Program-made: the position numbers and the translations under genes | Part shown: piece by piece, positions 240-61,194 of the stretch | Numbering within the stretch: position 1 is the first letter of the stretch | How the letters are laid out: every line of letters begins with the position of its first letter | Assembly: GCA_026168455.1 (NCBI GenBank) | Contig: CM047431.1 | Location: 26,260,623 to 26,324,622 of the forward strand | Direction: 5' to 3' | From: Theocolax elegans | Lineage: Eukaryota; Arthropoda; Insecta; Hymenoptera; Cerocephalidae | DNA: 64,000 nucleotides | Notes under the pieces: model-generated | What the model was told of the DNA's origin: nothing | Database searches by the model: none | Seen by the model: the letters and a program-made list of their open reading frames with translations, nothing else

Positions 240-3200
240 TCAACTGATTTTATACCCATATGGGTAACTTTTATTAAGTGATACAAGTCGCCTCTTTTCG
301 TACACTAGTTCGCATTTTTTACACTCAGGCCGTGTTACAATATCGTGATACGTAGTGCGCCGTATAGCGTCAAAGCCGACAAATATTGGTGGTATTTCTC
401 CTCGAACTAACTTACGCACCAAATCGAAATCGATTTTTCGACCTGCAGCAAAATTTAATTTTATACCTTTTATTTTACACACGCAAGATTCGCTTCCGTC
501 TGGTGTTCGGTACTTGTATGCGTAAAATTTCGGACCGCCGGATACAAACGATGTTATGTACGTGCCCACCCCGTGACACGCCAATTCGTCGGTAAGACTA
601 CCCAAAAACGGCCCAATCGCCGGCTCGTAATCATCGCTCGTGTCTTTGCTCACGTATATGATAGAGTCCGTGTCGTAGTACAAAACGCGTTCGCCCAGTG
701 CCACCAATTCGGAAAAAAGTTTTAATCGTGCCAGTGCCGTGGTATAAGCCGCAATCACAGCATTGCACTGTGGTGACGATTCAACAATCCCGTCAATATT
801 ACGCCAACACACATACATAATGTCATCATTAACCGGTAAAACAGAGCTAACCTCGACATCGGGACTGATGAGAAGCTCGTAGAGTCGTCGTGGTTCGTTT
901 ACCAACTCGGTCTTACCCATATTTTCTCGCTGCTCAAACTTACCCCACAACGAGTTTAAGCACAGTTTCGCCACCAAACTGAGACCAGGATTGAGATTGA
1001 TGCAATTTCTATCCTGTCTGATCCCCTCCTGTTGCTCAAATTCTTCCACATGATGTTCCATGGCATCTTCGTCGTCTCCGTAATCCACCGGATAACCCGA
1101 TGCATGAGTCTTTTCGATAAAGAACTTGTCTATGTAGCCGTGGAATAGACCACCTTGCTTTGTCCCCTTGTCGTACTGCGTCATTTTGTACGCCCATATT
1201 TCAAATATTTTTCGAATCACGTAATAAAACTCGACAGCTTTCTTCAACTCGTCGGCCACCCAAGTACCCGTAAAGACGCGCTCCCTTACGTCATCGTGAT
1301 TACAATTCGCTTGATTGTTCGACTCCACGCAAGAGCGACACAAGGCAAATATCAGCTTGTTGTGCATCTTGACCGGTAAAACAGGGTGAAATTAATTTCT
1401 CGGGGGTAAGACTTCGCACATTATTAGTCCATCAACGTTACTTATATCGTTACTCACACCCACCAATTCACGACACTCATCTTCACCAATGTACAGCGTC
1501 TGATGACCCACAGGATAGCGTCCATATTTACATATAGACGGATACAACGAACAAACATCCACATATTTAATTTTTTCGTCTTCTTGAACGTCGTACAATT
1601 TGACGATATTACCGGTTCGGCCGCCGAAAAATGCGTCTCTCGGGTCAAGCGGCGAATGGAAATTTTTCATCCGCTCGCTGATGTAGTCAGCCATCATGCG
1701 ATTTTGACTGCATTCACGATCAAATTGACATTCCCACATTTCGATGAGCCGATAACCGGAGCTGCTAATTTTCTCTGAAATTCTCACTCTTCTCTCGTAT
1801 CTCTCGTCCATGGTTTCACCATTCACGAGACGAATATCTCTGTTTAGCGTGAAACATCTTAGACAGCCATGCCAATAGCACCCGTGAAATTGCAAAACTA
1901 CTTTGTCCACCTCACTTAATTCGCAATAACCATCCACTAGCGGTCCCTCGGGTAGTCTCTTTTCTCGCGCTCGCACTGCAAACTGAAGTTAACACTGTAA
2001 TATTTGCTCCATCCAGCACATCCACTGCATCGCTTGCATCGATTGTCTATTGGAACACCTCTAGCCATCTTGCGGAATAATTCCGATCGTGTCTTGCTCT
2101 AAATACTTTTTTCTATACACCCTCATCCATGATGATGCAATAGTGCAACATTCTAGAAAGGGATCCGTTTCGCCACATGTCATAAATGTCTTTCTAAAGG
2201 CGAGGCATGCTAATCTCAATATCTTAACATCCTGCTTGCAGTACTTAATTATTTCATCTTGAAAATTAAAGATATAATTTTGCTCACACGTCTCGTTGTA
2301 CCATTGCAGAAAGTCTTTTCGCTGTTTCGCACTCATCGATTCTGGCGAGTACGTCCACAATGGTGGCATCACACCCACATAACCTTGATTTTCTGGAGTA
2401 TTAAATAAGTAGGGGAACGTACCCTTCTCAATATTTCCAAGTCCATAGGCCTTCGGTAATGCGCTTAACGGCATATGTAAATAATTGAGACTGTCCAGAA
2501 ATTTTACGTGTAGCACTCGCATAACCACTATCGTCCCCCCGTTCAGGATTATCGAAGGCTATTCCCGTATATCTTTTCTTTCCGCTAGATGTCGTAAAAT
2601 AAATTGTGCGTCAAAACCTTGCGCATTGTGCGCAATACAGATGACTTCTTGAAATTTTTGCCTTGGTGCGAGTGCGAGGTCGAGTAGCTGTTTTACCGGA
2701 TCAATGTTAAATACATATTCACGTATGCCGCATACATTACAAGAATTCGTAATATCATCGTTGTCGAGACACACCGTACAAACTTGTTGAGCAACGCATA
2801 AATTTGGCACGTTCAATTTTACCGTATCATCACCCACTACACTCTCCGACTGCTGAGTTTCAAAATCATAAAATACATAAAGTGTCAATTTTGTTTTTCA
2901 TCTGTTTGGACTATCTTTTATAGTTTGCATATAACACATATGATCAACATCCGCTTTTTTATTTCAAATCTTACAAAATATTATATTACATTCATGTGGA
3001 TCTCGATCGCTAGTCCTGACAGTCTTACAACATATTTTGCAAATTCTCACACTTTCACAAACCGAAAGATTTTTATCAAAAGAATCAACCTCTAAATGCT
3101 TCGATAAACAAGACGGACCAAAAAATTCTCTACTACACCGAGTACATTTTATTTTAATTTCATTAACTTTACAAAGCGAAGCCTGCAAGCATCCTCGACA

Positions 3201-17720: not shown

Positions 17721-17737
17721 GCAATTTTCTGTATATA

Positions 17738-17885
17738 TTGCTAATATATTGCCACCATATTTCCAATATATCGGCAATATATTGCCAATACATTGCCAAT
17801 ATATTACCAATATATTGCCAATACATGGCCAATGCATTACCAATATATGATCAATGTATGATTAATATATTGCGAATGTATTGGC
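17738..17885. repeat. Minisatellite of CCAATATATTG-type units
   Basis: About a dozen imperfect 10-12-bp units (CCAATATATTG, CCAATACATTG and similar). A related short stretch occurs at 20645-20690. It truncates the 5' side of the transposase remnant. Confidence 0.85.
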
Positions 17886-28298: not shown

Positions 28299-28441
28299 CT
28301 AAAATTTTTATCTGTGTAAATTATATAATATCGGTCTCTCCGAACTAAATGCTTTATTTTAGAATAAAGTAGGCCTATCGTACTCTTTGTCCACTATGGT
28401 TGGTGGAATTTCTCAGAGCACGGCCTTTTAAAATAATTAAA

Positions 28442-28508
28442 GGCGTTTCGTCCTCGATCTCCAGCTTGGATTCCTCAGTAAGGAACTGGAGATCTTACCT
28501 TAGACGCC
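28442..28508 (-). ncRNA. Hammerhead ribozyme motif, copy 1 (inverted unit)
   Basis: On the minus strand: GGCGTC (stem III 5' side and cleavage triplet GTC), stem I TAAGG/CCTTA closed by a 14-nt loop, core CTGAGGA (intact C3-U4-G5-A6-N7-G8-A9), stem II TCC/GGA with a 14-nt loop, then GAAA and CGCC closing stem III. Predicted cleavage lies between 28503 and 28502. The only core defect is an A in place of G at position 10.1, facing C11.1. The two loops share 9 complementary nt (GATCTCCAG and CTGGAGATC). Confidence 0.8.
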
Positions 28509-28992
28509 TGTCGCAAGATGAACCGCGACGCCAGCTAGATGTTCTGCGGCTATATATATAGAAAAAAGACGACGATCTCTCCAACGAGTGTAGAAAGATA
28601 GTCGTCTCCATCTGGTGGTGGGAAAAACCACCAGCCAGAGTGCGACGTATTAGACCAAGTCGCAAGTTATTTGAAATAAAATGAATTTATCGTTCGGTGA
28701 TATGTATATGTGTAAATTATATAATATCGGTCTCTCTTATTCTAAAATAAAGCATTTAGTTCGGAGAGACCGATATTATATAATTTACACATATACATAT
28801 CACCGAACGATAAATTCATTTTATTTCAAATAACCTGCGACTTGGTCTAATACGTCGCACTCTGGCTGGTGGTTTTTCCACCACCAGATGGAGACGACTA
28901 TCTCTCTACACTCGTTGGAGAGATCATCGTCTTTTTTCTATATATATATAGCCGCAGAACATCTAGCTGGCGTCGCGGTTCATCTTGCGACA

Positions 28993-29059
28993 GGCGTCTA
29001 AGGTAAGATCTCCAGTTCCTTAGTGAGGAGTCCAAGCTGGAGATCGAGTACGAAACGCC
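28993..29059 (+). ncRNA. Hammerhead ribozyme motif, copy 2
   Basis: GGCGTC 28993-28998 (cleavage predicted after 28998); stem I TAAGG 28999-29003 with CCTTA 29018-29022; core GTGAGGA 29023-29029 (the essential first C is G here); stem II GTCC 29030-29033 with GTAC 29048-29051 (one mismatch); GAAA 29052-29055; CGCC 29056-29059. The loop complementarity (29007-29015 with 29037-29045) is kept. The C3-to-G change should abolish cleavage. Confidence 0.78.
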
Positions 29060-29389
29060 TTTAATTATTTTAAAAGGCCGTGCTCTGGGAAATTCCACCA
29101 ACCATAGTGGACAAAGAGTACGATAGGCCTACTTTATTCTAAAATAAAGCATTTAGTTCGGAGAGACCGATATTATGTAATTTACACATATACATATCAC
29201 CGAACGATAAATTCATTTTATTTCAAATAACTTGCGACTTGGTCTAATACGTCGCAGTCTGGCTGGTGGTTTTTCCACCACCAGATGGAGACGAGTATCT
29301 CTCTACACTCGTTGGAGAGATCATCGTCTCTTTTCTATATATATATAGCCGCAGAACATCTAGCTGGCGTCGCGGTTCATCTTGCGACA

Positions 29390-29456
29390 GGCATCTAAGG
29401 TAAGATCTCCAGTTCCTTAGTGAGGAGTCCAAGCTGGAGATCGAGTACGAAACGTC
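29390..29456 (+). ncRNA. Hammerhead ribozyme motif, copy 3
   Basis: Same fold as copy 2, 397 bases on. Stem III is weakened (GGCATC and CGTC: a C-A mismatch and a G-U pair), the core again starts with G instead of C, and stem II is GTCC/GTAC. Copies 2 and 3 share the core and stem II changes, so they derive from a common damaged unit. Confidence 0.75.
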
Positions 29457-29895
29457 TTTAATTATTTTAAAAGGCCGTGCTCTGGGAAACCACCAACCAT
29501 AGTGGACAAAGAGTACGATAGGCCTACTTTATTCTAAAATAAAGTATTTAGTTCGGAGAGACCGATATTATATAATTTACACATATACATATCACCGAAC
29601 GATAAATTCATTTTAATTCTAAAATTTATATCGTCATTTTGAATGTCGAAAAGCAGATAATTATACTATACGGATTTATATTAGAATATGTTACAGATAT
29701 TTTTTAAAAATATTTTCAGCATAATCCAGGTCATAAAATTAAGTTTTTTCGAATTTAAAAAAATTAACACACGCATTACCATCGCGGACCGGAGAACCAT
29801 TATAATGGGTCGACCATTGATCGACCTTCACCCCATAGTCAATCAATTATCTGATACTTTTTTCGACCATTTACTGAGGGCGATCACAAATCTTA

Positions 29896-36318: not shown

Positions 36319-39300
36319 TCATACTATATGGTCAAGATCTTGATCAGCTTCTTGGCATGAGCATTTAGGGTTATTTATGATATTGACCCTTGATAGTGAT
36401 GCTGCTAAACCATAATGATCACATCTACATCTATTGATTGTTACAATAAGTTCTCGTGACAGAGTTTTGTTATAGAACCACGGCCTATTTGCTTTAACAT
36501 AATAGTTTTCAAAGTACGCTTTTCCTTTAGTTAAACCTAAGTTGCTTACAAGTTCTTCGGTATTTTTAGTCATTTGTTTCTTAAAAATTTCAGAGAGACC
36601 TGTAAATGGCAGCCCTAAATCTACATAAATATTCGGATCTTTGCTAGCATTTCTTGCTGCTGCATCGGCTAGTTCGTTTCCTTTAATTCCACAATGAGAA
36701 GGGACCCATATGAAATTTATAGAAGCGGTTTTTGTTTTCTTTTTTATAAATTCTAAATACTTTTTTTTAATTTCTAAAATGTATGTGTTGATCTTTATAT
36801 CGATTTTGCACCGTTCGAGGCTTTCAAGAACACTTAATGCGTCTGTTATTACATAAATGTTTTTATAACTATATTCCAGTGCAATGTCCATAGCATCATT
36901 TAACGCAATACTCTCCGCGGTGAAGGTATTAGTGAGAAGGTTTATATTTTTTTTGCATAGATTTGTCGATTGTCGTGCTAATACAAGAGGTTGTTACATG
37001 ATTCTTAATGTTGCTTTTACTAGCATCTGTATAAATCTCTATGTGGTCATCTGTATTGAAAAATTTCCTGAAATTATCGTTAGGATTTTTCGCTTGTTTT
37101 AGCTCTTTGCCAAGATTTTTATTAACAGGTATTGAAGTTAAAAGTACGTCATAATCATAATTATAGATATTGTATGCTGTCGTTTTTATAGTTGTTATAT
37201 TTAGGCTTTTAATTTCATTTATGCATTTTTCAAATAATTTTTTACGTTTTCTTTTGCATTTGAACAGTGCACTAGAATAGTAGTTATTTACAATATTAGA
37301 GATTAATAAGTTGTCATTACTAAGTATTTTAACAAGATAATTGCAGCAAAGAAATTTGGCTCTTTCTTTTATTGATGGGAGTTTAGATTCTGCTAAAAGT
37401 ATACTGATCGGAGTTGATTTACGATATCCATAAGCCATTCGTATTGCTGCGTACTGGATTTGCTCTAATTTTTTTATTATAGACTTATTGGTAGGGAAAT
37501 AAACAAAGTTCGCGTATTCTAAAATCGATCTTATAAAGCTTTTATAAAATATTATCAAAGTGCTGGGGTCTGCTCCCCACCAAGTACCACATAAATACTT
37601 TAAAATATTGAGAGCTCTATGACATTTACTTAGAGTTTTATTAATTTGTTGTCTAAATGTAAATTTAAAATCAAATATTATTCCTAGAAAACGTACTGTC
37701 TCGCTTGATTTAATAGAACATTCATTATTTATTTGAATTTCGTGTTCTCCCGGAGAAACATTATTATTATTAAAATTTATAAAAATGGTTTTTTGTGGTG
37801 CAAGGTCTAATCCAAGCTTTTTTAATTCGTAATTTAGTTTGAATAATTCCTTTTGAAGAGAGTTTTTATTGTTTGAAAATAGAGCAATATCGTCTGCAAA
37901 TTGCGATACAAAAATAGTTCTAGGTGAGCTTTTAAAAAGGTCAGATACATATATAATATATAATAATGGACTTAAGACCCCTCCTTGGGGTACTCCCTTG
38001 TATGAAATTTTATAATCATCAGATAGCGAAGAGTATAAGTGTCTTTCGTATGTAAGAAATTTAACGAATTTGATTAACTGATAAGGACAACCTATTAAAG
38101 CAAGTTTTTTAATTAGTAAATCGCTTAAAACATTGTCAAACGCTCCGCAAATATCGAGAAATACAGCGTATAACTCTTTCTTTTTTCTTAAAGAATTTTG
38201 GATATTTATTGATAAATTTAGTAAGTTATCTACGCAGGATTGGCCTTTTCGAAAGCCACTTTGGCTTTTAGGTAAAATATTTTGAGTTTCTATCCACCAT
38301 TGCATCTTATTCTTAAGAATAGTCTCAAATAGTTTGCAGATAGCTGAAGTTAAAGCTATAGGTCGGTAACTAATTCCGTCGGCTTTGCTAACAAAGTGTA
38401 AATATGTTTGTTTCCATTGATCTGGGAATTCACTTTTACGGTACATTTCATTAAGAATATCTAAAAGGATTAATTTATATTTTGGAGACAACTTTTGTAA
38501 CGAGTAGTAATCTATACCATCTAAGCCTGTGGCGGACTTAGTATTGCGTGAATCAAGGGCTAAGTTAAATTCCGCATAAGTAAATTCCCTTTGTAAGAAA
38601 TCATTATCACTGCAATTTGGAATCCAGCTAGGATTACGCGGGACCCATGGTGGGCAGACTTTGTTTAAAACTATCTCTTTGTTGTCATTTTGAAGATTTT
38701 CGGATAGATGTACAGGCGTGACTTTAATCCATTTATTTTTTAAAATTTTAGTTGTATCCCAAACGTATTTACCCCTAGTCTGAAAGTTTATTGTGCTAGC
38801 AAAGTTTTTATAATGTTCTCTTCTTTTACTTTTAAATGTTCGATATGAAATGGCCCTGAGTCTTTTATATTCAATAAAATCATTTATCAATTTGGTCTTT
38901 TCCCATTTTTTGAACGCAATATTTCTAAGGTCTTTACTTTTTTGGCAGTCTTCATCCCACCAAGCAACAGGGTTTCGATGAATATTTTTATTTACTATTT
39001 TATTTTTAGGTGTGTTATTTTTAATGGCGTTAGAAAGTATTTCAATAAACAAATTATATTTCTCTTTAACTGACATATTTTCGTACTCATTTGTAAAAAA
39101 TTGTGGAAATTTAGTATCTAATTCAAATTCAATATCCTGCCAGTTTGTTCTTGTAGATCTAAGTTTAAAAGATTTTTTATTATAGATCGATTTTTCTGAA
39201 TTGATTGAGATTTCTATTGGATAATGGTCTGATCCATACGTTTCTTTTTGAACAAAAGTTTCGATTTTATCATAAAAAAATTTATTAGATATGATTAAGT

Positions 39301-39874
39301 CTATATTTGAGGTCGATGTGTTATCAATGTGCGTGATAGTATTATTGTTAAGTGTGATTAAATCTAATCTATCTAGGGAATCAAGAAGATGTTCGCCATT
39401 CGCGTCAGTTTTTTGGCAATTCCATAGAATATTGTGCGCATTGAAATCGCCTACAATTATATTATTTTCATTCTTAGATACATTTGAGAAGATGATGTCC
39501 CATTCATTAGATTTAAGATTAATATTAGGAGGTTTGTAACACGTTAGTAAATTAAAAACCGGAATGACGTTGGTTAGTTGAATACCACAAATTTCCACCG
39601 AATCGTCTGGAGTCATAATAGTTTTAATTTCTTTGTACGCTATATTATTACGTATTAATATTAATATACCTCCACCTCTTTTGTTTTCTCTATCTTTTCG
39701 AAAAGTAACGAATCCAGGGTAGTGAAAATTATCTATAGATGGTCGAAGCCATGACTCTACACATACGAAGATATCAATTCCTTGTAGTATCAGATGAATT
39801 TCATTTTTACGCCGAAGAATGCTTCTTGCATTCCAAAAAAGAACTTTTATACTATTGTTGTTTTTTTGAGTCAT
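36319..39874 (-). pseudogene. ORF2: endonuclease, reverse transcriptase, RNase H (one frameshift)
   Basis: From the ATG at 39874: an N-terminal AP-like endonuclease (VLFWNARSIL, GDFNAHNILW, SDHYPIEI), then reverse transcriptase with QSGFRKGQSCVDNLL, DICGAFDNV, PQGGVLSPLLY and catalytic FADDIALF (about residue 659), then RNase H starting IEIYTDAS and continuing VPSHCGIKGNELADAAA. A single frameshift in the A run near 36940 divides RNase H: the first frame stops at 36929 and the second runs 36891-36319, ending near QEADQDLDHIV. Apart from this break it is fully open over about 1,180 codons, so the copy is young. The product would copy its own RNA at nicked chromosomal DNA. Confidence 0.9.
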
Positions 39875-39929
39875 TTTTAAATTCAAACTATTTTTTTTTC
39901 CTTTTATTATTATTTTTATCTATTTAAAC

Positions 39930-41017
39930 TTATGATTCAGTATCGGTTGAGGGATGGTCACTATCAAGTTCCGTTTGAGTACTGTTTTGACCTAAATTTT
40001 CTGTTTTTATTAATTTGTTTTTCAGTCTAGTTAATTTTGATTTAATGTTTGATTCCGTAACTAAAGGGTATATTTGATCAATGATAAAGCCAATATTCGA
40101 TATATCGTTGGTTAAATTCCATGCTTCTATGTAACTACTAGAATCGTTAAGACATTTTACTAAGAAATCTTGGAATTTCTCTGATGTAATACTAATATTG
40201 TCTTTCGCACTGTTTAGATTATCGTATGCTGTGTTTATAACTTTTCGTAATTTGTTTGTATCTATAACACTATTTTTTTCTTCTGTATTGTGAAGTTTTT
40301 TTTTCTTTTTTTGGCGTTTACTAGTTTTAGGAGGAGGCAAATCTGAGTTTTCCTTTATTTTTTGTAAAATGTTATTTTTTTCTAGATTATTACTGTTATG
40401 TTGCTCCATTATAAAAGAGGTTGAGCTTGATAAATCACTGTTGGTTGTAGAGTGAGGTCTTTTTTGGTTAATCTTGGTTTCCATATTTTCAATTTGGTGT
40501 AAATTGAGACTTTGTTGAGTGAGGTTTTCTTCTATAGCTATTAGATTGTCTTGCGAATTGTAGTCGAAGTCAGTGTTTACATTGGGGCATACTTTTGATA
40601 TGTGCCCAGCCTGTTTACATACAAAACAATGTGCGGAATCTTTTGATAAATACGCCCAGTACGAGATATTTTCAATTGTAAATTGTAGAGTGTCAGGTAA
40701 TTTTCTTTCGTCTTCTTCCTGTATATAAAACTGTCGACGGAAAGACATTATATGTGATCTGCCCGGTTTTGAGGAGCTGGATCGAATTTTAGAAATTTTT
40801 GAAACAATAGGAATTCCTTTGACTTTTAGGGCATCAATAATATCTTGGTTTGTAATAAACGGATGAATGTTTGAAATAACGATTCTCTTATTATTGTTTT
40901 TCAATGGTTTGATTTTTAGTTGAAATTCGTTTATGGTAACCGTTTTATTTATAATTAGGTTAACTTGCTCTTCATTAGTTAAATAAATACAGACCCGTTT
41001 ACCTGATATTTTTGATA
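39930..41017 (-). pseudogene. ORF1 (gag-like, CCHC zinc knuckle), C-terminal part
   Basis: The open frame contains an RNA-binding-like segment (KKNNKRIVISNIHPFITNQD is close to what is read), a single zinc knuckle CFVCKQAGHISKVC (CX2CX4HX4C), and a long charged region with KRQKKKKK. It stops 55 bases before the ORF2 ATG. Its 5' end is cut by the palindromic element at 41018. The first codons of the open frame above that point belong to the inserted element. Confidence 0.85.
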
Positions 41018-43429
41018 TACAGGGTGTTCTGAAATTCATTCCGTTAATTTCGCACACATATAAAGCACGAAATTCTAAGCAACTTTTCTATCTGACAAAT
41101 TTCGATTTGAAGCTTATTTATTAAGTTATTGTTAGTTAAACATTATTAATTCGAGCCAATCAGAGCGCGCCAGTCGGCGATGGGCGGTGCAGAGAGACCG
41201 AAAGCGGTGCGTGGAGGGAGCGCCCGGAGAGGGGAAGCATATTGGTTGATTCATTTGTTATTCAACACGTTAATATGCGACAAAATTAAGAAAATCGGGA
41301 GATTAAAAAATGGCCGAAAAGGAAATATCAAGCATTATTATTTTATTATTTAATTATTTAATTGCTTTACGCATTTTAAATAAATTTATTGTTTAATAAA
41401 TTAATACCAAGGATATCTTAGAAACCACTTCATCGAATAAACTGACATTTTAACAATAATGATTTTAATCCAATTGAATGAAACAGAATTTTGTAATTAA
41501 ATTCGAAATGTTAATGTTAATTATTATATTAAAAAATTAATTATTTAGCTGTTTATTAAACAATTTTTTAATTTTTCTGAATAACTTGACAAGTATAATT
41601 TTTTTTACTATATTATAACACAGTCTATTTCATTTAAGAGGATTAAAAATGTTGAAAAGTTACTGTTAAAATATTAGTCTATTCGATGAAATTGTTCCTG
41701 GGATATCATATCTATTGTGGAAAAAAAACTCAGGGTATAGAGTCTCTTATAATTAATTAAAATAGTACCCTAGTAGAAATCTGACAATAAATGTAACAAT
41801 TTTAAGTCAGAAAATGGCCAATTATCATAAAATACCCAATAAATGCCCAATTAATCGCAACATTAGAGTTTTTTTAACCTTAAATGTTACATTTTTACTA
41901 GGGTTATGCTACATATAAATTGGCCAAAAAAATGAAATTAAAAGTTAATAATAAGTAAATTGGCTTAAAAAATTAAGAATGCTTTCACTTGTTATGAAAA
42001 CAATTATTAGTTAATAATATTGAATTGTTTTTCCAATTTTAACCCAGGCTTATCCCCTTAATCAAATAAATATTGGTGATTTCACGACGAGTGTACATAA
42101 ATTTTAAAATGGCTCATGTTTTTTAGATAGACTAAAAATATAATCCATAATCTGCAAGAACTTTAATTCAAAATATTAATTTGTATCAGAGTTATGCATG
42201 TTTTTTCCTTTTTTCCAATTTTCACCATATTGGAAGTATATCTTAAAATACCTCAAAATAGGTCAACTGTTTCTATTACATAAGGTAAAAGTATCAGCGC
42301 CGGAACGGTTTTTTACTAGGTATGTAAATTTTAATTATTTTTAAGCAAAATAAAGAGCTATACCATTACTGTTTGTTAGCTTATGATAAATTATTAGCGT
42401 TCAATTCATATTTTTTCGGAGTTAATAATTAATAATTTTTCATGTTAATTCTATTTTTTTATGCTTATGTTGACTCTATTTATTAAATATGAGATAAAAA
42501 ACTGTCAATATGAATTTTTACATAAGTTGGAACATTCAACATAATTATGTTGATTAGAATTGTGTTTTTTAAATAATTTATTTACTACATATAGTTGACT
42601 TATCGAAGATGATGTAAAATATTAAAATAGTTATTAGTTAACGATTGCTAACAATTACACATTTAAAAACTCTAAATAAATATTCAATATCTTGATGTTA
42701 AAAGTGTTCCACGAAGCGGACGAAATATAGAATTATGTACCAACTATGAAACATTTTTTCTTGCTGTTCCAATACTTATGGACATGAGAAAATGATGTAC
42801 ATATTTTGCAACAGTATAATTTATGAAGCAATTAGATATAAATTTGAATTTTAGTGTACATCATATGAAAGTATAGCTTCTATACGTAATATTATGTTTG
42901 TAAAGCATAATGAATTATGTTTAAATAGCTTCAAACAAGGCATCGGAAATCAGCACTATTTGTCATCATAACCTTCCAAATTATTTGACTTTTGAACCTT
43001 TTATATTTTTTTTTTCTTGATTACATATATTTTATGTTCTTATATTTATAAATCTACATTTCTTAACTTATTTGAAATATGATTTATTTTTCCATTTATA
43101 AAAGACTCAAAGTTTTGTTAAAATATAGTAATTCAATACTATATGTTCCACAATACGGCACTGTTTCGCAATTGGTACTTTCACCTTATTAAATGGGAAA
43201 AAGTTTAACGCGCTCAATATAATTGTTTACCATTTTTACAAATACCTAATTTGCAGTAATAAAATTGGCTATCAAGTAGTTTTGATTTTGGACTGTACGA
43301 CAGCAACAATATGGCTCTGATTGAATAACAGGTTATTCTTTGAAACAATAGCTTTTCAACAAAATTTGTTTTAATATGGGATTTTGATGCAAACCAAAAA
43401 TATAATAAATCAATGATATTGTACTAGTG

Positions 43430-48779: not shown

Positions 48780-49944
48780 AAAATCCTTTTTGGATGAAAA
48801 AGAACAATACCCAATACCCATTAATACCCAGTATCCACAAAAAGTAAACGTGTGCGCGAGAATATAAATAATCAATCGATTAATCTCATTTTACCAACGA
48901 TAAAATAGCCCCACAAAAAAAATTGAGAGTCCCAAAAACTTAGCCATAGTAGTCATATGCTTTTGGGGTCGCTGCTTCCGAATTCGTCAAGGTCAGTTCA
49001 AGGTGAAATGTACAAAATTAGCGGTAATCAAGGTTTAACCAGTAAATACATATGTTTTTGAGGTCGCTGAATTCGAATCCGAGGTCCATTTGATCCCATC
49101 ACCTCAGGGTCAAGGTCATGCTTTGAGCCCTAAACTCTAAGCCTCTGAACCCTATACCCTTGAACCCTAAACCCTTAAAACCTAAACCCTTAGTTATCTA
49201 CATTCAAAAAAATCGGAAAATTTAAACTTTGTTTCGAGTTTATATGACGTTTGGACGACGTTGTCATTAACAAAAAACAATGCTGAAGGATAAATGTTAC
49301 TTTAAAGCTTAAGTTGAAGGTTAAATTGAAAGTCGTAGAATTACTCGATAAAATTACTTCAAAAATTATCTTAACCTTTTTGATAATACCTAACCTCTGA
49401 ATAGTATATTATGCAATATGGAAGTAAAATGTGGTTTAATTCTCGCGTAACAGCACAAGAGAAAAAAAATCGTACTCCCTCGTTGTATACGTTATTTTTT
49501 GCAACAGTGTGAGGAAAATTTGATAAAAGTATAAATTAATTAAGATTATAAATCCGAAATGAAGCAACATTGGGTGGCAAAGGGTGGGGAGTTAAAAGGG
49601 GGAGCGTGGAGCGGGTCTAGGGCTGCAAGCCCTCGTGGGGGTGCAGAGCCTCCTTTCATAAAAATAAATTTTCGGATATTTACAAAAATAAATAGTTATT
49701 TATGCATTTAGGGATTAAAATAGACATACATCCTGGAGAAGAAAATTGCTGCCCGAGCTTTAGCGAGGGCAGTAATTCATCCAAGGGAATAATCGCCTTT
49801 CATAATTTTTCACCCTGATCATTTGAACAGTACTTTCTACAATAACAATTAATTTTTCTTAATTTCTAAATTTTTTCAATATAGTAAAATTTTTTTATAT
49901 ATTTAATCTAATATAATAAATTTAATTTTATACTTGTAGAAAAA
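48780..49944. other. Unassigned; contains degenerate CCCTAAA-like repeats
   Basis: 49125-49192 has about nine imperfect CCCTAAA / CCCTTRAA units. The remainder has no gene or RNA I recognise. Confidence 0.5.
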
Positions 49945-50640: not shown

Positions 50641-51370
50641 ACAAAAAAGTAAGTCTAGGATGCATAAAATTTGACTCCTTCAAAGTAAAATAGGTTTACG
50701 GGGAACAAAATAAGTCTACGGGGAGTAAGGTGAGTCCATGGGGAATAAAGTGATTGAAGGAATAAAATGCAATTTCACTCAACTCGTAAAGGCTATTAAA
50801 GTAGACGTTTTTGATGATCAGGGTGAAATAGAATTTTATGCCACAGTGCGAGTAAAATATGCACTCAACAATGTTTTTAATCGCATTTAACACCCATTGG
50901 AATATAAAATGTTCGTTACATGGGCGAAATATAATTCACGATTCGATTCAGACAATTTGTCAGTCTCGCTTCGCTCGGACATCAATCTTTGCCCTCATCG
51001 AGATTCAACTTTTTCGCCCATGTAACAAAAATAATACCTATTGTTAAATTAATTCCATTTTAATGAAAAATCTAAATTTTACACGCTTGCAGCTACTAAA
51101 TTTTAAATTATAATAATAAGCTTTGGAAAATTATGTAAATTGCTTTATATACTGACGTTGTCTTAATTATTATTATTTTAAAACATTTGAAATTTTCAAA
51201 TAAAGTATTGTATAAATAATTTATGATATTTTTGAGTCTTCATATCCATTTAAATATCTTCAAGTATCAATGAATATTGATTATGACAAATTCAGCCAGC
51301 AGTATTGTAAAATATTTTTTACTTACTTTAAATTTAGTTAAGATTTTGTTACTAAGTATAAAATGTGTAC
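50641..51370. other. Intron-like AT-rich flank downstream of the eIF3a exon
   Basis: Starts (minus strand) with the donor GTACAC at 51370-51365. No further eIF3a exon is readable here. Confidence 0.5.
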
Positions 51371-52647
51371 CTGGTGAATTAATCGCACGAGAGTTACATC
51401 TTGTAAAGCTGGAATATATTGTACTAATGGACCTGTATCATCTTGAAGTACATTCTTAACAATAGAATCAACTTTTTCACAAAGTTCTAACGGATGGAAT
51501 TCCACTTCAAGCCAAACATATAAATCTTGAAGTTGCGACGATGCTAAAGATACAACGTTAAGACGTACAATGTCTTTTAGTAGTGATGCTCTTGACGGAG
51601 GTTGTAACAATCCTAAAAGTATAGCAAGCTTTTGTGCCTTTTCTTGAGGGCTTTTATCAGTTTCAATAAACCGATCAAATTCTGGATGTGCAGACGGTAG
51701 CGGAATAGACAATGTTGCCAATAGAACTCTATTTGCCATTTTCTGTTGTTCCTCAGATGACATGTTTTTCTTCATATCGCGAGAAAGTTGAAATAATTTA
51801 AATAAAGCTGCTGCGTGAAATAAGTAATTACCTGCTTTCCAAAATACCATTGCAAGTTTTTGATAATAATTCGCCATTGTTTTAGGTACAGGCATTTTTT
51901 TTGAAAGATTCATTAATCCATGAATGTCTTCTATTGCTTTGTAAGCTTCTTGCCACAATTCCATCTGAATGGCGGAATCTAATTGTATTAACCTTGTTTC
52001 TAAATTTAATTGTTGTGTTTCAATCTTATTAATTGAAACATTCGACACCATTTGCGGAAGCTTGCTAATATCTTCTAAATGTTTTCGCAATTTTTCACAT
52101 AATTTACGAAATTCAGTTTTTCTATTATACTCCAAACAAAATTGAAAAGCCATTCTGGCAATGTCATGATACAAAGTTTCAACATGAGCATTTGTACGAA
52201 GTAATTCTAAACACTGACAATAAGACTCCCATAAAAATTTAACCCACGGTGTTAAGATCGTTCTATCACTTCGATCTTGGGCATCTTCGCCACTAACAGC
52301 AGACAATAAAATACTTTCCGGTGTAGCTAGATTATCAAGATCATCAATATCAATAACAGCCTGTTGACTTTGTTTTCTTGCAGCATCTGTTTTCTCTTCA
52401 GCCATTTTTAAATATCCTCTAATTACATTTTCGAGGCTGCCTACATTTACTGATTGGAACATGTTTCGATATTGAAATAATCCTTCCTTAGCAATGTGTG
52501 ATTTCTTTAATTCCACACATAAATCTAAATATTTAAACATTATTGGCTCTAACACTGACTCAGACCAACTATAAGTCCATTTTTTATTTCTAAACACTTC
52601 TTGTAATGTATCCAACGCTCGTGCTGGTTTTCCAACTTCAATAAATT
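51371..52647 (-). CDS. eIF3a: eIF3a, one internal exon (initiation factor 3 subunit a)
   Basis: The frame encodes FIEVGKPARALDTLQEVFRN, EPIMFKYLDLCVELKKSHIA, DLDNLATPESILLSAVSGED, DRTILTPWVKFLWESYCQCL and QYIPALQDVTLVRLIHQ. This is the conserved N-terminal half of eIF3a, the large scaffold subunit of the eIF3 complex that joins mRNA to the 40S ribosome, including the start of its PCI domain. It is fully open. Exon limits: acceptor CTTTTTTCAG before 52647 (phase 1) and donor CAG|GTACAC after 51371 (phase 0), so it is about 425 codons of a protein usually over 1,000 residues. The first exon (about 18 codons) is not seen between 52648 and 53170. No downstream exon is found in the 51 kb that follow in the direction of transcription. 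Confidence 0.93.
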
Positions 52648-53169
52648 CTGAAAAAAGAATAAAAATTTTGTATTACACTTATGATTATAATTACATATGT
52701 AAGGGAATATAATTATATAATCAAAAGAAATAATTGGTGAATTGAATAATTAAATAGAAATAAATCAAATATTCTAGTATTTATTAATTGTTATTTTTAT
52801 ATTCGTTATTTATTAGTTAAACATATATGTTAGCGCCCAGAATATAAAAATAAAATTTGTTCCTGACTGCACTTAGCATTCAAGGATATTGTTTCTCAAA
52901 TCATAACAATTAAAATTTTGCATTTTTAAAAATATGCTATTCAATTTAATTATATATTTTTTTAAATAAAATCGTAACAGTCCTTTACGAAAAAATTAAC
53001 GGGAACCAAAAATTATCGAAAAAGTACTAAAGCTTTTTATGACCCAAATATAAAACAGAGTTTTTAACAAAAAGTTTTAGCGCTCACAAAAAAACATGTT
53101 TTTATAGTATTTATGAATACCATTCGGTACCGTCACATATCTGTTGAAAACTACTTGAAAAATAATTTT
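52648..53169. other. Intron-like region upstream of the eIF3a exon
   Basis: AT-rich, with a polypyrimidine-like tract and AG next to the exon on the minus strand. No first exon and no repeat recognised. Confidence 0.5.
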
Positions 53170-58233: not shown

Positions 58234-61194
58234 TTGCAGTCTAATACGGTTAATAATCGCCAGGGTGAATTTAAAATTGCACATGCCAATGTTAATAGAT
58301 TAAAGACTCACTTTAATGAGATTGAACTTTGCTGCCTAGATAATCAGTTTGATATATTTGCGATCACTGAGACGTTTCTGAAGGATACTGACATTGATTC
58401 AATAATTAAAATTAAAGGATTTAATTTTTTTAGATTAGATCGTATAGGTAAAGAGGGAGGGGGTGTGGGAGCGTACGTTAAAGAATCACTAGAATGTAAG
58501 GTTATTTGTAGCTCAAACCCTGTGTTCTCAAATTCTCCAGAGTACATGATTTTTGATATTAAATTAAAAAGCAAAAAACTTTTGTTTGCAGTTATTTACC
58601 GTCGCCCACATGCCTCTTATCCCATTGAGTTTTTTGATAATATTATGGATCTGCAGCAAAAATTCGATTTTGTCGTCATCACTGGAGATCTTAATACTAA
58701 TATGCTTGCTACAAACGCTGATGTAAAATTTCTTGCGGCGAATATTGAAGCGGCTTCATTATTTCTAATTCCTTCAGAACCTACACACCATGCTGTGTGG
58801 CAGGATAGAATGGCTCATACATGGATTGACCTCTTTATTATCAACAATCCAGACTCTCTTGCACACTATAAAAAATCGTCAGCGCCGTTCATTGCGGGCC
58901 ATGATATCATAGAAGTTGTATTAAACATTAAGAGTTCACAGCCGCGACCCAAAACTATCTGTTATCGTAACTTGAATGGTATCCCGTTAAATGAGTTAAA
59001 AGAGAATTTTTTAGACCTACTTGCATCACCCTGTGCAGTCGACCGATATACGCATAACTTAGTAAGTAATTCTATTAATACTGATATTCCTGGAAATCTC
59101 CTATATCTAGTCAATAACTTAGAAAAATCAATAATAGGTGCAATTGATAAACTTGCTCCATTAATTACTAAAACTCTGCCTCCCAAGGCTAAACACTGGG
59201 TAACTCCTGATATACGCAAATTAATTCGAGCGAGAAATAAAGCTTTTAAAATAGCAAGGCTAACTGAAAGTCCGGAAAGAATTGAAATCTTCAAAGCTCT
59301 CAGAAGGGAAGTCTCGAATAAATTATGCTCAGCAAAAAACAGGTTTATTGAAAAAAAGATAGAGTCAGCTAGTGATACCCGTGCTAAATGGAATGAGTTA
59401 CGGAAACTGGGTCTTTCTGGTAGTTTTCTACCTTCCCCTACCTTATATTTTTCGCTAAATGAACTTAATAAGTTCTATGCCTCTGTTTCGTCTCATGTAT
59501 TACCCCTGTTGTCTGAGACACTATTGGAAATCATCTCTACCCCTCTTTCCTGTGATGCTGACCTGATCTTTGATTTCATGCCAATAAATGAACAAAATCT
59601 GTATAAAATACTTAATGACTCACGATCCAAAGCCTCGGGAATTGATGGCATTTCAGTTAAAATGATGAAACTCCTCTCTCCAGAGCTGTTATCTCCTTTG
59701 GTAAACATCTTCAACTTATCCCTAAAAGAGGGCTTGTTTCCGGAGAGTTGGAAAAAATCGACCTTACGACCTATATCCAAGATAAAAACACCAGCATCCC
59801 CTTCTGACACGAGACCAATTGCTCAATTATCAGAACTCTCCAAATTATTAGAAAAAGTTGTCCAAACTCAACTTACAAACCACTTAGAAAAAAACAAGTT
59901 GCTATTCAATCGTCAAGCTGGTTTTCGCAAGGGGCATAGTACCCAAACAGCGCTACTTGGTATATTAGAAGATGTCCGTGCGGCGATTGACAATAGAATG
60001 GTTACATTCTTGATTCTCTTCGATTTCTCGAAGGCTTTTGACTTGATCCCACACAATAAATTACTTAAAAAACTAAGAAAGTTCAATTGTTCCGATAATG
60101 TAATTCGCTGGTTCTACAACTATCTAAGAAATAGAACTCAAGCTGTGATTGATGATGAGGGTAATTTATCATCTTGGTTAAAACTACTTGCGGGTGTGAT
60201 ACAGGGAAGTGTATTAGGTTCTACTCTATTTTATACATTCATAAACGATTTGCCGCTAGTAATACGCTACTCAAAAATTATGATCTTCGCTGATGATACT
60301 CAGATATACCTCCACTGCCACCCTAGCGAATTGGCTGCAGGAATTGCCGCAATAACAGCTGATGCACAGGCATTGGCGGAATGGGCCTTATTGAATGGCT
60401 TAAAATTAAACACCGAAAAAACAAAAGCAATCATCTTTGGCAGTCGACCCTTTATATCTGATATTTATAGAGACTCTTGTCAGAATATTATCATCTCCGG
60501 CACTCCTATCTCGTTCGTTTCTGAGGTCAAGAATCTGGGATTGTGGATGACCTCCACCCTTGACTGGGATAAGCATATTCGCAGTGTCTCCCAAAAGATC
60601 CACGGTCTGCTCCATGCGCTGCGTTTTCACAAACATGCTCTGACTTTCGATCTTCGCAAAAAGTTAGTACAATCACTAATTTTCCCTCATCTGGATTATG
60701 CGAGTGCAACTTTTTGTAGCCTTGAATTTACGAAAAATTTGAAATTGCAACGATTGCAAAATGCTTGCACACGGTTTGTGTATGGAAACATACATCGAAC
60801 TGCACACATAACCCCCTATCGAATAGAATTGGGATGGCTCTCGGTTGAGAAGCGTCGTGAATTCCTAACTATAATGCTAGCCCTAAAAGTCATATGCTTC
60901 AAAAATCCAGTTTACCTATCAGAAAGATTCATTTTAGCTGAAACCAGCTCACTTGTACGTCACTCTGTACGCCATCCACCGCAAAAACTGCTTTATAAAG
61001 TTCCTAGGACTGAGTATCTTAATAAGTCATTTACAATAGTCTCATCCAAACTAATCAATGCTCAACCTTCAATTGTACTGGATGCAAACTTTTTAAATCA
61101 AGCTAGAGCCTTTCTCCTAAAGGATTTCTTAGCAAAAGATAAAGAAGACTGGGAATCTAGATATAATATTCAAATAAGTCAGAGCTTAGTATAA
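58234..61194 (+). CDS. CR1-like ORF2: endonuclease and reverse transcriptase
   Basis: An open frame of 986 codons. Endonuclease: AHANVNRLKTHFNEIE, AITETFLKDTD, GGGVGAYVK, VITGDLNTNML (about residue 148), AGHDIIEV. Reverse transcriptase: KASGIDGISVKMMKLL, RPIAQLSELSKLLEK, RQAGFRKGHSTQTALL, LFDFSKAFDLIPH, GVIQGSVLGSTLF and catalytic FADDTQIYLH (about residue 684). A ~200-residue C-terminal part has HLDYASATFCSLEF. The first ATG in this frame is about 108 codons in, so the start is unclear. The frame is the same as ORF1 and is separated from it by TGA codons at 58216 and 58231. Alternatively the ATG at 58214, overlapping the ORF1 stop, was the start and a one-base indel followed. This copy may still supply enzyme. 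Confidence 0.88.
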   Translation: MQSNTVNNRQGEFKIAHANVNRLKTHFNEIELCCLDNQFDIFAITETFLKDTDIDSIIKIKGFNFFRLDRIGKEGGGVGAYVKESLECKVICSSNPVFSNSPEYMIFDIKLKSKKLLFAVIYRRPHASYPIEFFDNIMDLQQKFDFVVITGDLNTNMLATNADVKFLAANIEAASLFLIPSEPTHHAVWQDRMAHTWIDLFIINNPDSLAHYKKSSAPFIAGHDIIEVVLNIKSSQPRPKTICYRNLNGIPLNELKENFLDLLASPCAVDRYTHNLVSNSINTDIPGNLLYLVNNLEKSIIGAIDKLAPLITKTLPPKAKHWVTPDIRKLIRARNKAFKIARLTESPERIEIFKALRREVSNKLCSAKNRFIEKKIESASDTRAKWNELRKLGLSGSFLPSPTLYFSLNELNKFYASVSSHVLPLLSETLLEIISTPLSCDADLIFDFMPINEQNLYKILNDSRSKASGIDGISVKMMKLLSPELLSPLVNIFNLSLKEGLFPESWKKSTLRPISKIKTPASPSDTRPIAQLSELSKLLEKVVQTQLTNHLEKNKLLFNRQAGFRKGHSTQTALLGILEDVRAAIDNRMVTFLILFDFSKAFDLIPHNKLLKKLRKFNCSDNVIRWFYNYLRNRTQAVIDDEGNLSSWLKLLAGVIQGSVLGSTLFYTFINDLPLVIRYSKIMIFADDTQIYLHCHPSELAAGIAAITADAQALAEWALLNGLKLNTEKTKAIIFGSRPFISDIYRDSCQNIIISGTPISFVSEVKNLGLWMTSTLDWDKHIRSVSQKIHGLLHALRFHKHALTFDLRKKLVQSLIFPHLDYASATFCSLEFTKNLKLQRLQNACTRFVYGNIHRTAHITPYRIELGWLSVEKRREFLTIMLALKVICFKNPVYLSERFILAETSSLVRHSVRHPPQKLLYKVPRTEYLNKSFTIVSSKLINAQPSIVLDANFLNQARAFLLKDFLAKDKEDWESRYNIQISQSLV

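Follow-up and report, generated by a model that had tools for sequence, protein, structure and literature searches.

A high-copy retrozyme family with type III hammerhead ribozymes, Penelope-type insertion scars and unusually long complementarity between the ribozyme loops is present in the hymenopteran insect Theocolax elegans (658-Mb assembly, GCA_026168455.1). An insertion within the 64,000-nucleotide stretch of contig CM047431.1 analyzed here (positions 26,260,623 to 26,324,622 of the forward strand, hereafter the window) is a degenerate member of this family. We consider it quite probable that the family is non-autonomous and is moved by Penelope-type reverse transcription, a reading that draws on the ribozyme anatomy, the abundance and conservation of the family, the structure of its insertions, and the finding of this type of scar in a Penelope-like element from the assembly as well.

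According to the parts of the two papers used here, type I hammerheads are mostly found in animals and type III mostly in plants (PMC7229834, PMC7761336), in agreement with the original prediction. The same literature, again in excerpt, alludes to forthcoming work on insect elements that carry type III hammerheads. Among the matches listed from open PubMed Central titles and abstracts, no insect type III retrozyme family and no Penelope scar on a retrozyme are described, and the words "inverted" and "target site" are absent from the main text of PMC7229834. The original prediction had further called a type III hammerhead in an insect unusual; the insect host is borne out, but isolated type III motifs have been reported from termite and dipteran genomes (PMC7936874, seen in part), so that the form is less singular than was supposed.

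The Insertion in the Window

The insertion spans about positions 28309-29622 and consists of two head-to-head arms of a 397-bp non-coding unit. The left arm (28309-28736, minus strand) contains one hammerhead and has its RNA 3' end outward, with a short end near unit position 59; the right arm (28737-29622, plus strand) consists of two tandem units (397 and 395 bp) and a partial unit, and has a long end with a tail near unit position 94. The direct repeat CTAAAATTT flanks the insertion on the plus strand at 28299-28307 and 29619-29627, and is 9 bp long, or 14 bp with one mismatch allowed. The stretch separating the two end sites (roughly unit 59-96), which is the tail region, lies at 28795-28832 (plus strand). 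Beside the short-end site is a stem-loop with an AC-rich apical region (unit 36-65; 28772-28801, plus strand), which the minimum-energy fold contains and the centroid fold lacks.

Three hammerhead motifs are present, as the original prediction held: copy 1 at 28442-28508 (minus strand; predicted cleavage between 28503 and 28502), copy 2 at 28993-29059 (plus strand; predicted cleavage between 28998 and 28999) and copy 3 at 29390-29456 (plus strand; predicted cleavage between 29395 and 29396). Copies 2 and 3 follow each other in tandem as had been described, but copy 1 sits in the inverted arm. Each motif reads in the order stem III, C17, stem I (TAAGG/CCTTA), core, stem II and GAAA, with stem III as the open stem, which is the type III topology that had been assigned. 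None of the three has an intact core. The defects ascribed to each copy were all found, namely A at 10.1 in copy 1 and, in copies 2 and 3, G at position 3 together with a stem II mismatch (GTCC/GTAC); copy 3 has additional changes in stem III (GGCATC and CGTC) that had gone unmentioned. Loop I of copy 2 (29004-29017, plus strand) holds GATCTCCAG, which is complementary to CTGGAGATC in loop II (29034-29047, plus strand), and the same loops occur in intact copies.

The window contains several other features. Two frames at 240-1988 (minus strand) resemble protein-primed DNA polymerase B and presumably belong to a Maverick/Polinton-like element, and long frames at 36319-41087 (minus strand) and 58234-61194 (plus strand) resemble what we take to be non-LTR retrotransposon proteins. 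At 17733-17883 there is an array of the 11-bp unit ATATATTGCCA, partly inside a frame that we assume to be transposase-like, and at 49128-49191 a short CCCTAAA/TGAACCCTAAACCCT array resembles a telomere-type repeat inside the chromosome. An eIF3a gene at 51338-52672 (minus strand) is most like insect proteins; among the matches listed (best 120 of 251), its identity is 84% to ladybird, 87% to dragonfly and 89% to cockroach, and 90% to another ladybird over a shorter stretch.

Abundance and Conservation of the Family

The full type III hammerhead pattern has 1,709 matches in the assembly (829 and 880), and the reversed control has none (0 and 0). A search for the 397-bp unit, which the original prediction had suggested, gives at least 220 matches, a lower bound, part of the candidates having been scored. 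A looser hammerhead pattern finds 5,313 hammerhead-like places in the genome against 84 in controls, and some of these, among the loci fetched from the looser-pattern list, are other families with a type I-like arrangement. The core is intact in 121 of 138 loose-pattern motif instances in the fetched loci, a proportion that is biased towards intact copies by the limit of three substitutions per segment and in which overlapping loci were possibly counted twice. Intact relatives are therefore many, and the alternative raised with the original prediction, that every genomic copy lacks an intact core, is clearly contradicted.

In the family as a whole, the CUGANGA core, GAAA and the cleavage triplet occur in order with stem III open. 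The unit has the form expected of a retrozyme: it is small, non-coding, tandemly arranged and dispersed, and every unit carries a hammerhead. The longest reading frame in a unit trimer has 37 amino acids. Its RNA folds far better than 100 shuffled sequences (z = -6.36). The core is kept across subfamilies that are about 72% identical while stem II changes on both sides, from GTCC/GGAC to GACC/GGTC. Over 111 units, mean variation in the 67-nt ribozyme region is 0.0102, and the 197 other 67-nt stretches of the unit range from 0.0104 to 0.0542 (median, 0.0342). Variation at the core nucleotides by themselves is not significantly below that of randomly chosen unit sites; among 10,000 random sets, 933 were as low.

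The covariance check proposed with the original prediction had a divided outcome. No scored sequence reaches the Rfam gathering cut-off of 48.5 bits for RF00008, but an intact copy aligns to the model end to end with a significant sub-threshold score (36.5 bits, E=5.6e-7 over 111 bases). At gathering thresholds, Rfam has no match in the window or in three further loci (L003, L005 and L006), and the sub-threshold list for the region (27 rows) contains no hammerhead; the microRNA-like matches that head this list lie on the long inverted repeat and were rejected as structure artefacts. On the genome, RF00008 gives 14 matches among 68 scored of 79,098 first-look candidates, and none of the 68 scores above 48.5. 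Relatives of the unit were absent from a phage collection and, by one pattern, from viral contigs. Because the family lies below the curated Rfam threshold in every locus scanned, others may be overlooked.

Seven of the 14 RF00008 places were inspected as sequence (L094-L098, and two in L099), and all belong to a second type III family (L094-L099, for example, G000:C3:28907300-28908700), which is unrelated to the first in sequence. In L099, the one insertion of this second family that was seen, the direct repeats have a spacing of 512 bp, the arms are inverted, there is a one-sided tail of about 34 nt, and the duplication is 12-13 bp, so that all three Penelope marks are present. The observation behind the original prediction is right, and its interpretation of the motifs as a type III ribozyme with a likely active ancestor is supported as sound.

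Loop Complementarity and Folding

The complementarity of GATCTCCAG with CTGGAGATC in the window family has counterparts elsewhere, namely CTCTAGCT with AGCTAGAG in another family and, in a variant of the same, CTGTAGCT with AGCTACAG. Because loop II is wrongly placed between subfamilies when the ribozymes are aligned with MAFFT, pairing between loops I and II was counted by script. Among the 23 distinct motifs in which stem I is strict, 19 have at least 8 bp (8-12) and the other four have 3-6; in a smaller set of typed ribozymes, 7 of 9 have at least 8 bp; and in the second type III family, four of five copies have 10-12 bp and the fifth has 6. When loops were swapped between sequences, pairing was lower in six of eight swaps and not in the other two.

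At minimum energy, the motif is predicted to fold into a hairpin in which stems I and II cannot form. For an intact copy, computed energies in the absence of tertiary pairing are -28.3 kcal/mol for the hairpin versus -12.9 kcal/mol for the hammerhead, and for the circular unit -124.1 with the hairpin versus -108.9, so that the hairpin is favored by about 15 kcal/mol in calculations that include no tertiary terms. The loop pairing can take the form of either a kissing contact or a long hairpin incompatible with stems I and II. Covariation does not separate the two, because the same pairs serve both.

Loop pairing can attenuate cleavage in the satellite RNA of cereal yellow dwarf virus. Such pairing has been noted both for this satellite and for insect type III motifs (PMC7936874, in part). 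At least four loop 1-loop 2 pairs are reported in many hammerheads, and trimming a six-pair loop contact to four slows cleavage about 20-fold (excerpt of PMC3088659). The full-length loop complementarity of 8-12 bp found here exceeds these described contacts of four to six pairs. One might tentatively imagine the motif as a one-way latch, which would cut during transcription and then refold into the long hairpin, the circle staying closed until it is copied by a Penelope-type reverse transcriptase. If true, this would explain the stability of animal ribozyme circles and would tie retrozymes to Penelope machinery.

Architecture of the Insertions

Insertions of the family mostly have two inverted arms with both RNA 3' ends outward, and one-armed insertions also occur. 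Arm ends are unequal, inner break points vary, and the number of units ranges from a part to many. Among 56 match clusters, counted after removal of those with a flank seen before and including some pieces cut by locus ends or short divergent matches, 35 RNA 3' ends lie near unit position 58 (45-70), 37 near position 96 (84-104) and 13 elsewhere. One short and one long end are found in 25 of the 30 two-armed insertions with both ends seen; the other five comprise one long/long, one long/other and three other/other pairs, with no short/short pair, and four of these five belong to subfamilies 73-90% identical, where unit coordinates map poorly. Where both ends could be classed, the proportion is 25 of 26, which has a probability of about 4e-7 on a 50:50 model. 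The short end adjoins the AC-rich loop of the stem-loop described above.

Among 40 insertions with an identity of 90% or more, 29 are flanked by direct repeats of at least 9 bp, which measure 13-14 bp in 22 cases. Such repeats occur in 4.5% of shuffled flank pairs, and none of this length was found at the remaining 11 insertions. The flanks are 62-100% AT. Insertions of the family mostly have a tail on one side, inverted arms and a short target duplication, as in Penelope-type integration.

The RNA 5' ends of the arms and the divergence between units were analyzed after removal of 10 overlapping loci and of BLAST pieces below 88% identity. The 5' ends are widely spread, and only one of 78 is found 5 nt or less from the cleavage site, where 2.2 would be expected, nine of the values being at position 1 and partly reflecting the unit cut point. 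Because no clustering at the ribozyme cut is seen, the template is not usually a linear cleaved monomer, and linear cleaved RNA was dropped from consideration in this role. There is some recurrence of 5' ends at unit position 198 (4 of 78), which adjoins the TATATATATA hairpin and is a possible pause site.

Units within one arm differ by a median of 0.26% (124 pairs), and units between insertions by a median of 3.3%. An arm therefore appears to be mostly copied from one circular or multimeric molecule. The two arms of one insertion differ by a median of 0.67% (65 pairs), with values of 4.5% in L058 and 9.2% in L063, which indicates that the arms at times come from different molecules. Units about 5% apart are found within one arm in L017 and L074; these arms are unexplained by one circular template and must have involved template switching or mixed multimers. 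On the whole, arm structure is mostly compatible with a circular RNA intermediate.

Penelope-Like Elements of the Same Genome

Penelope-like elements were sampled as 17 regions (L077-L093), with 98 GIY-YIG matches listed in the genome. One of them, L077 (G000:C6:24250500-24257600), encodes RVT_1 (reverse transcriptase) and GIY-YIG. Its two inverted arms are 99.8% alike; their open frames have 833 and 824 codons, and a minimal type I hammerhead follows the frame. Its boundaries, drawn by eye, comprise a duplication of 12-13 bp and, at just one of the two ends, a tail of about 29 nt. L078/L079, a pair of outer ends of the same family about 9 kb apart, likewise has by eye a tail at just one of the ends, and a 14-bp repeat is present at each. 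The minimal type I motif, again typed by eye, is present in 11 of the 17 regions.

The unit has no reading frame with reverse transcriptase and GIY-YIG, such as an autonomous Penelope-like element carries, and shares no sequence with the 17 Penelope-like regions at E up to 1. One weak Penelope-like match to the unit (E 0.15) lies beyond the stretch common to L084 and L085 and was dropped. Three further loci (L031, L049 and L051) have a type I-like hammerhead, with a tandem spacing of about 2.2 kb in L049 and L051 and an inverted arrangement in L031; L051 has no frame above 133 codons, and L031 and the Penelope-like region L088 have 247 bp in common at 95%.

The scar of the retrozyme insertions is the one published for Penelope-like elements. 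As described in the portions of PMC11167929 used here, the Penelope protein cuts AT-rich DNA on both strands and extends both, with initiation in an AC-rich stem-loop; the tail corresponds to the sequence lying between two start sites of reverse transcription. In a rotifer, inverted pLTRs with a 31-bp tail on one and a 9-bp duplication are reported (PMC3846280, in part).

Proposed Mechanism and Alternative Explanations

Under Penelope-type movement, a tandem copy would be transcribed, its hammerheads would cut the transcript, and the monomers would probably be joined into circles. A Penelope-type protein would then cleave an AT-rich target on both strands, and the ends so produced would each prime reverse transcription inside the RNA, at either of two sites about 38 nt apart. 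The two cDNAs would run round the circle or along a multimer and would be joined 5' end to 5' end, giving inverted arms, a one-sided tail and a target duplication typically of 13-14 bp. Cleavage, circularity and the protein acting in trans are what we infer here.

The hammerhead might instead be a chance or relic resemblance within an ordinary satellite or fold-back repeat, in which the only conserved structure is the long hairpin. All copies in the window are broken, the minimum-energy fold is that hairpin rather than the hammerhead, and the core nucleotides alone are not significantly less variable (933 of 10,000 sets as low), all of which would fit such a relic. We nevertheless hold it to be very unlikely, given that there are 1,709 whole patterns against none in the control, that subfamilies differ on both sides of stem II and yet keep the core, that the ribozyme region is at the bottom of the variation range of the unit, and that the same fold occurs in a second, unrelated family.

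Other machinery could also be considered for the movement itself. LINEs likewise give direct repeats and variable RNA 5' ends, and the window has frames with an apparent resemblance to non-LTR reverse transcriptases, so that a retrozyme moved by LINE-type target-primed machinery, with inverted arms arising by twin priming, has something to commend it. However, the arm ends lie in unique unit sequence, at two internal sites separated by about 38 nt, with no A-rich or simple-repeat tail, a short and a long end are combined in 25 of 30 insertions, and a Penelope-like element of this genome carries the retrozyme-type scar, which makes LINE-type movement unlikely. Long inverted arms and target duplications would fit a fold-back DNA transposon or mini-transposon, but unequal arm ends, variable inner break points, varying unit number and the existence of one-armed insertions would not, and we regard this alternative as extremely improbable. 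Penelope-type movement of a type III retrozyme remains our preferred reading.

Comparison with Known Systems

Penelope-like elements have been called likely or strong-candidate movers of animal retrozymes on the basis of shared traits and co-occurrence (PMC7229834, in the part used here; see also PMC7761336). The detailed Penelope mark on retrozyme scars bears on this proposal, and, because a Penelope-like element with the same mark exists in the same genome, the idea is directly testable in vitro. As far as the excerpts of PMC11167929 and PMC3846280 describe them, Penelope-like elements share with the present family the inverted arms, the one-sided tail (30-40 bp), the short target duplication, the AT-rich target and the tandem units. 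Unlike them, the unit described here is devoid of a long reading frame and has a full type III hammerhead rather than the minimal type I noted by eye in 11 of the 17 Penelope-like regions here.

Metazoan non-LTR retrozymes, as presented in part of PMC7229834, are likewise short non-coding tandem hammerhead units of about 150-450 bp with many dispersed copies and no LTR features. Their hammerheads are type I, whereas stem III is open in the present family, which combines type III with a Penelope scar. Plant LTR retrozymes are also non-coding and also have type III hammerheads (PMC4918200, in part). They have LTRs, about 700 bp between hammerheads and a link to Gypsy machinery (per excerpts of PMC7229834 and PMC7761336), whereas the unit here is 397 bp, the scar is Penelope-like, and the insertions have inverted arms and two internal end sites in place of direct LTRs at both ends.

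Delta-like circular RNAs of termite and toad, and termite and dipteran genomes, also contain type III hammerheads, and those of insects likewise have Watson-Crick or wobble pairing between loops 1 and 2 (PMC7936874, in part). The termite genomic motifs are described there as isolated and the loop contact as 4 nt long, whereas those of T. elegans form a mobile tandem family with mostly 8-12 bp. The presence of a high-copy type III hammerhead in a mobile family of an insect bears on whether the ribozyme elements of plants and animals have a shared ancestry or have arisen by convergence.
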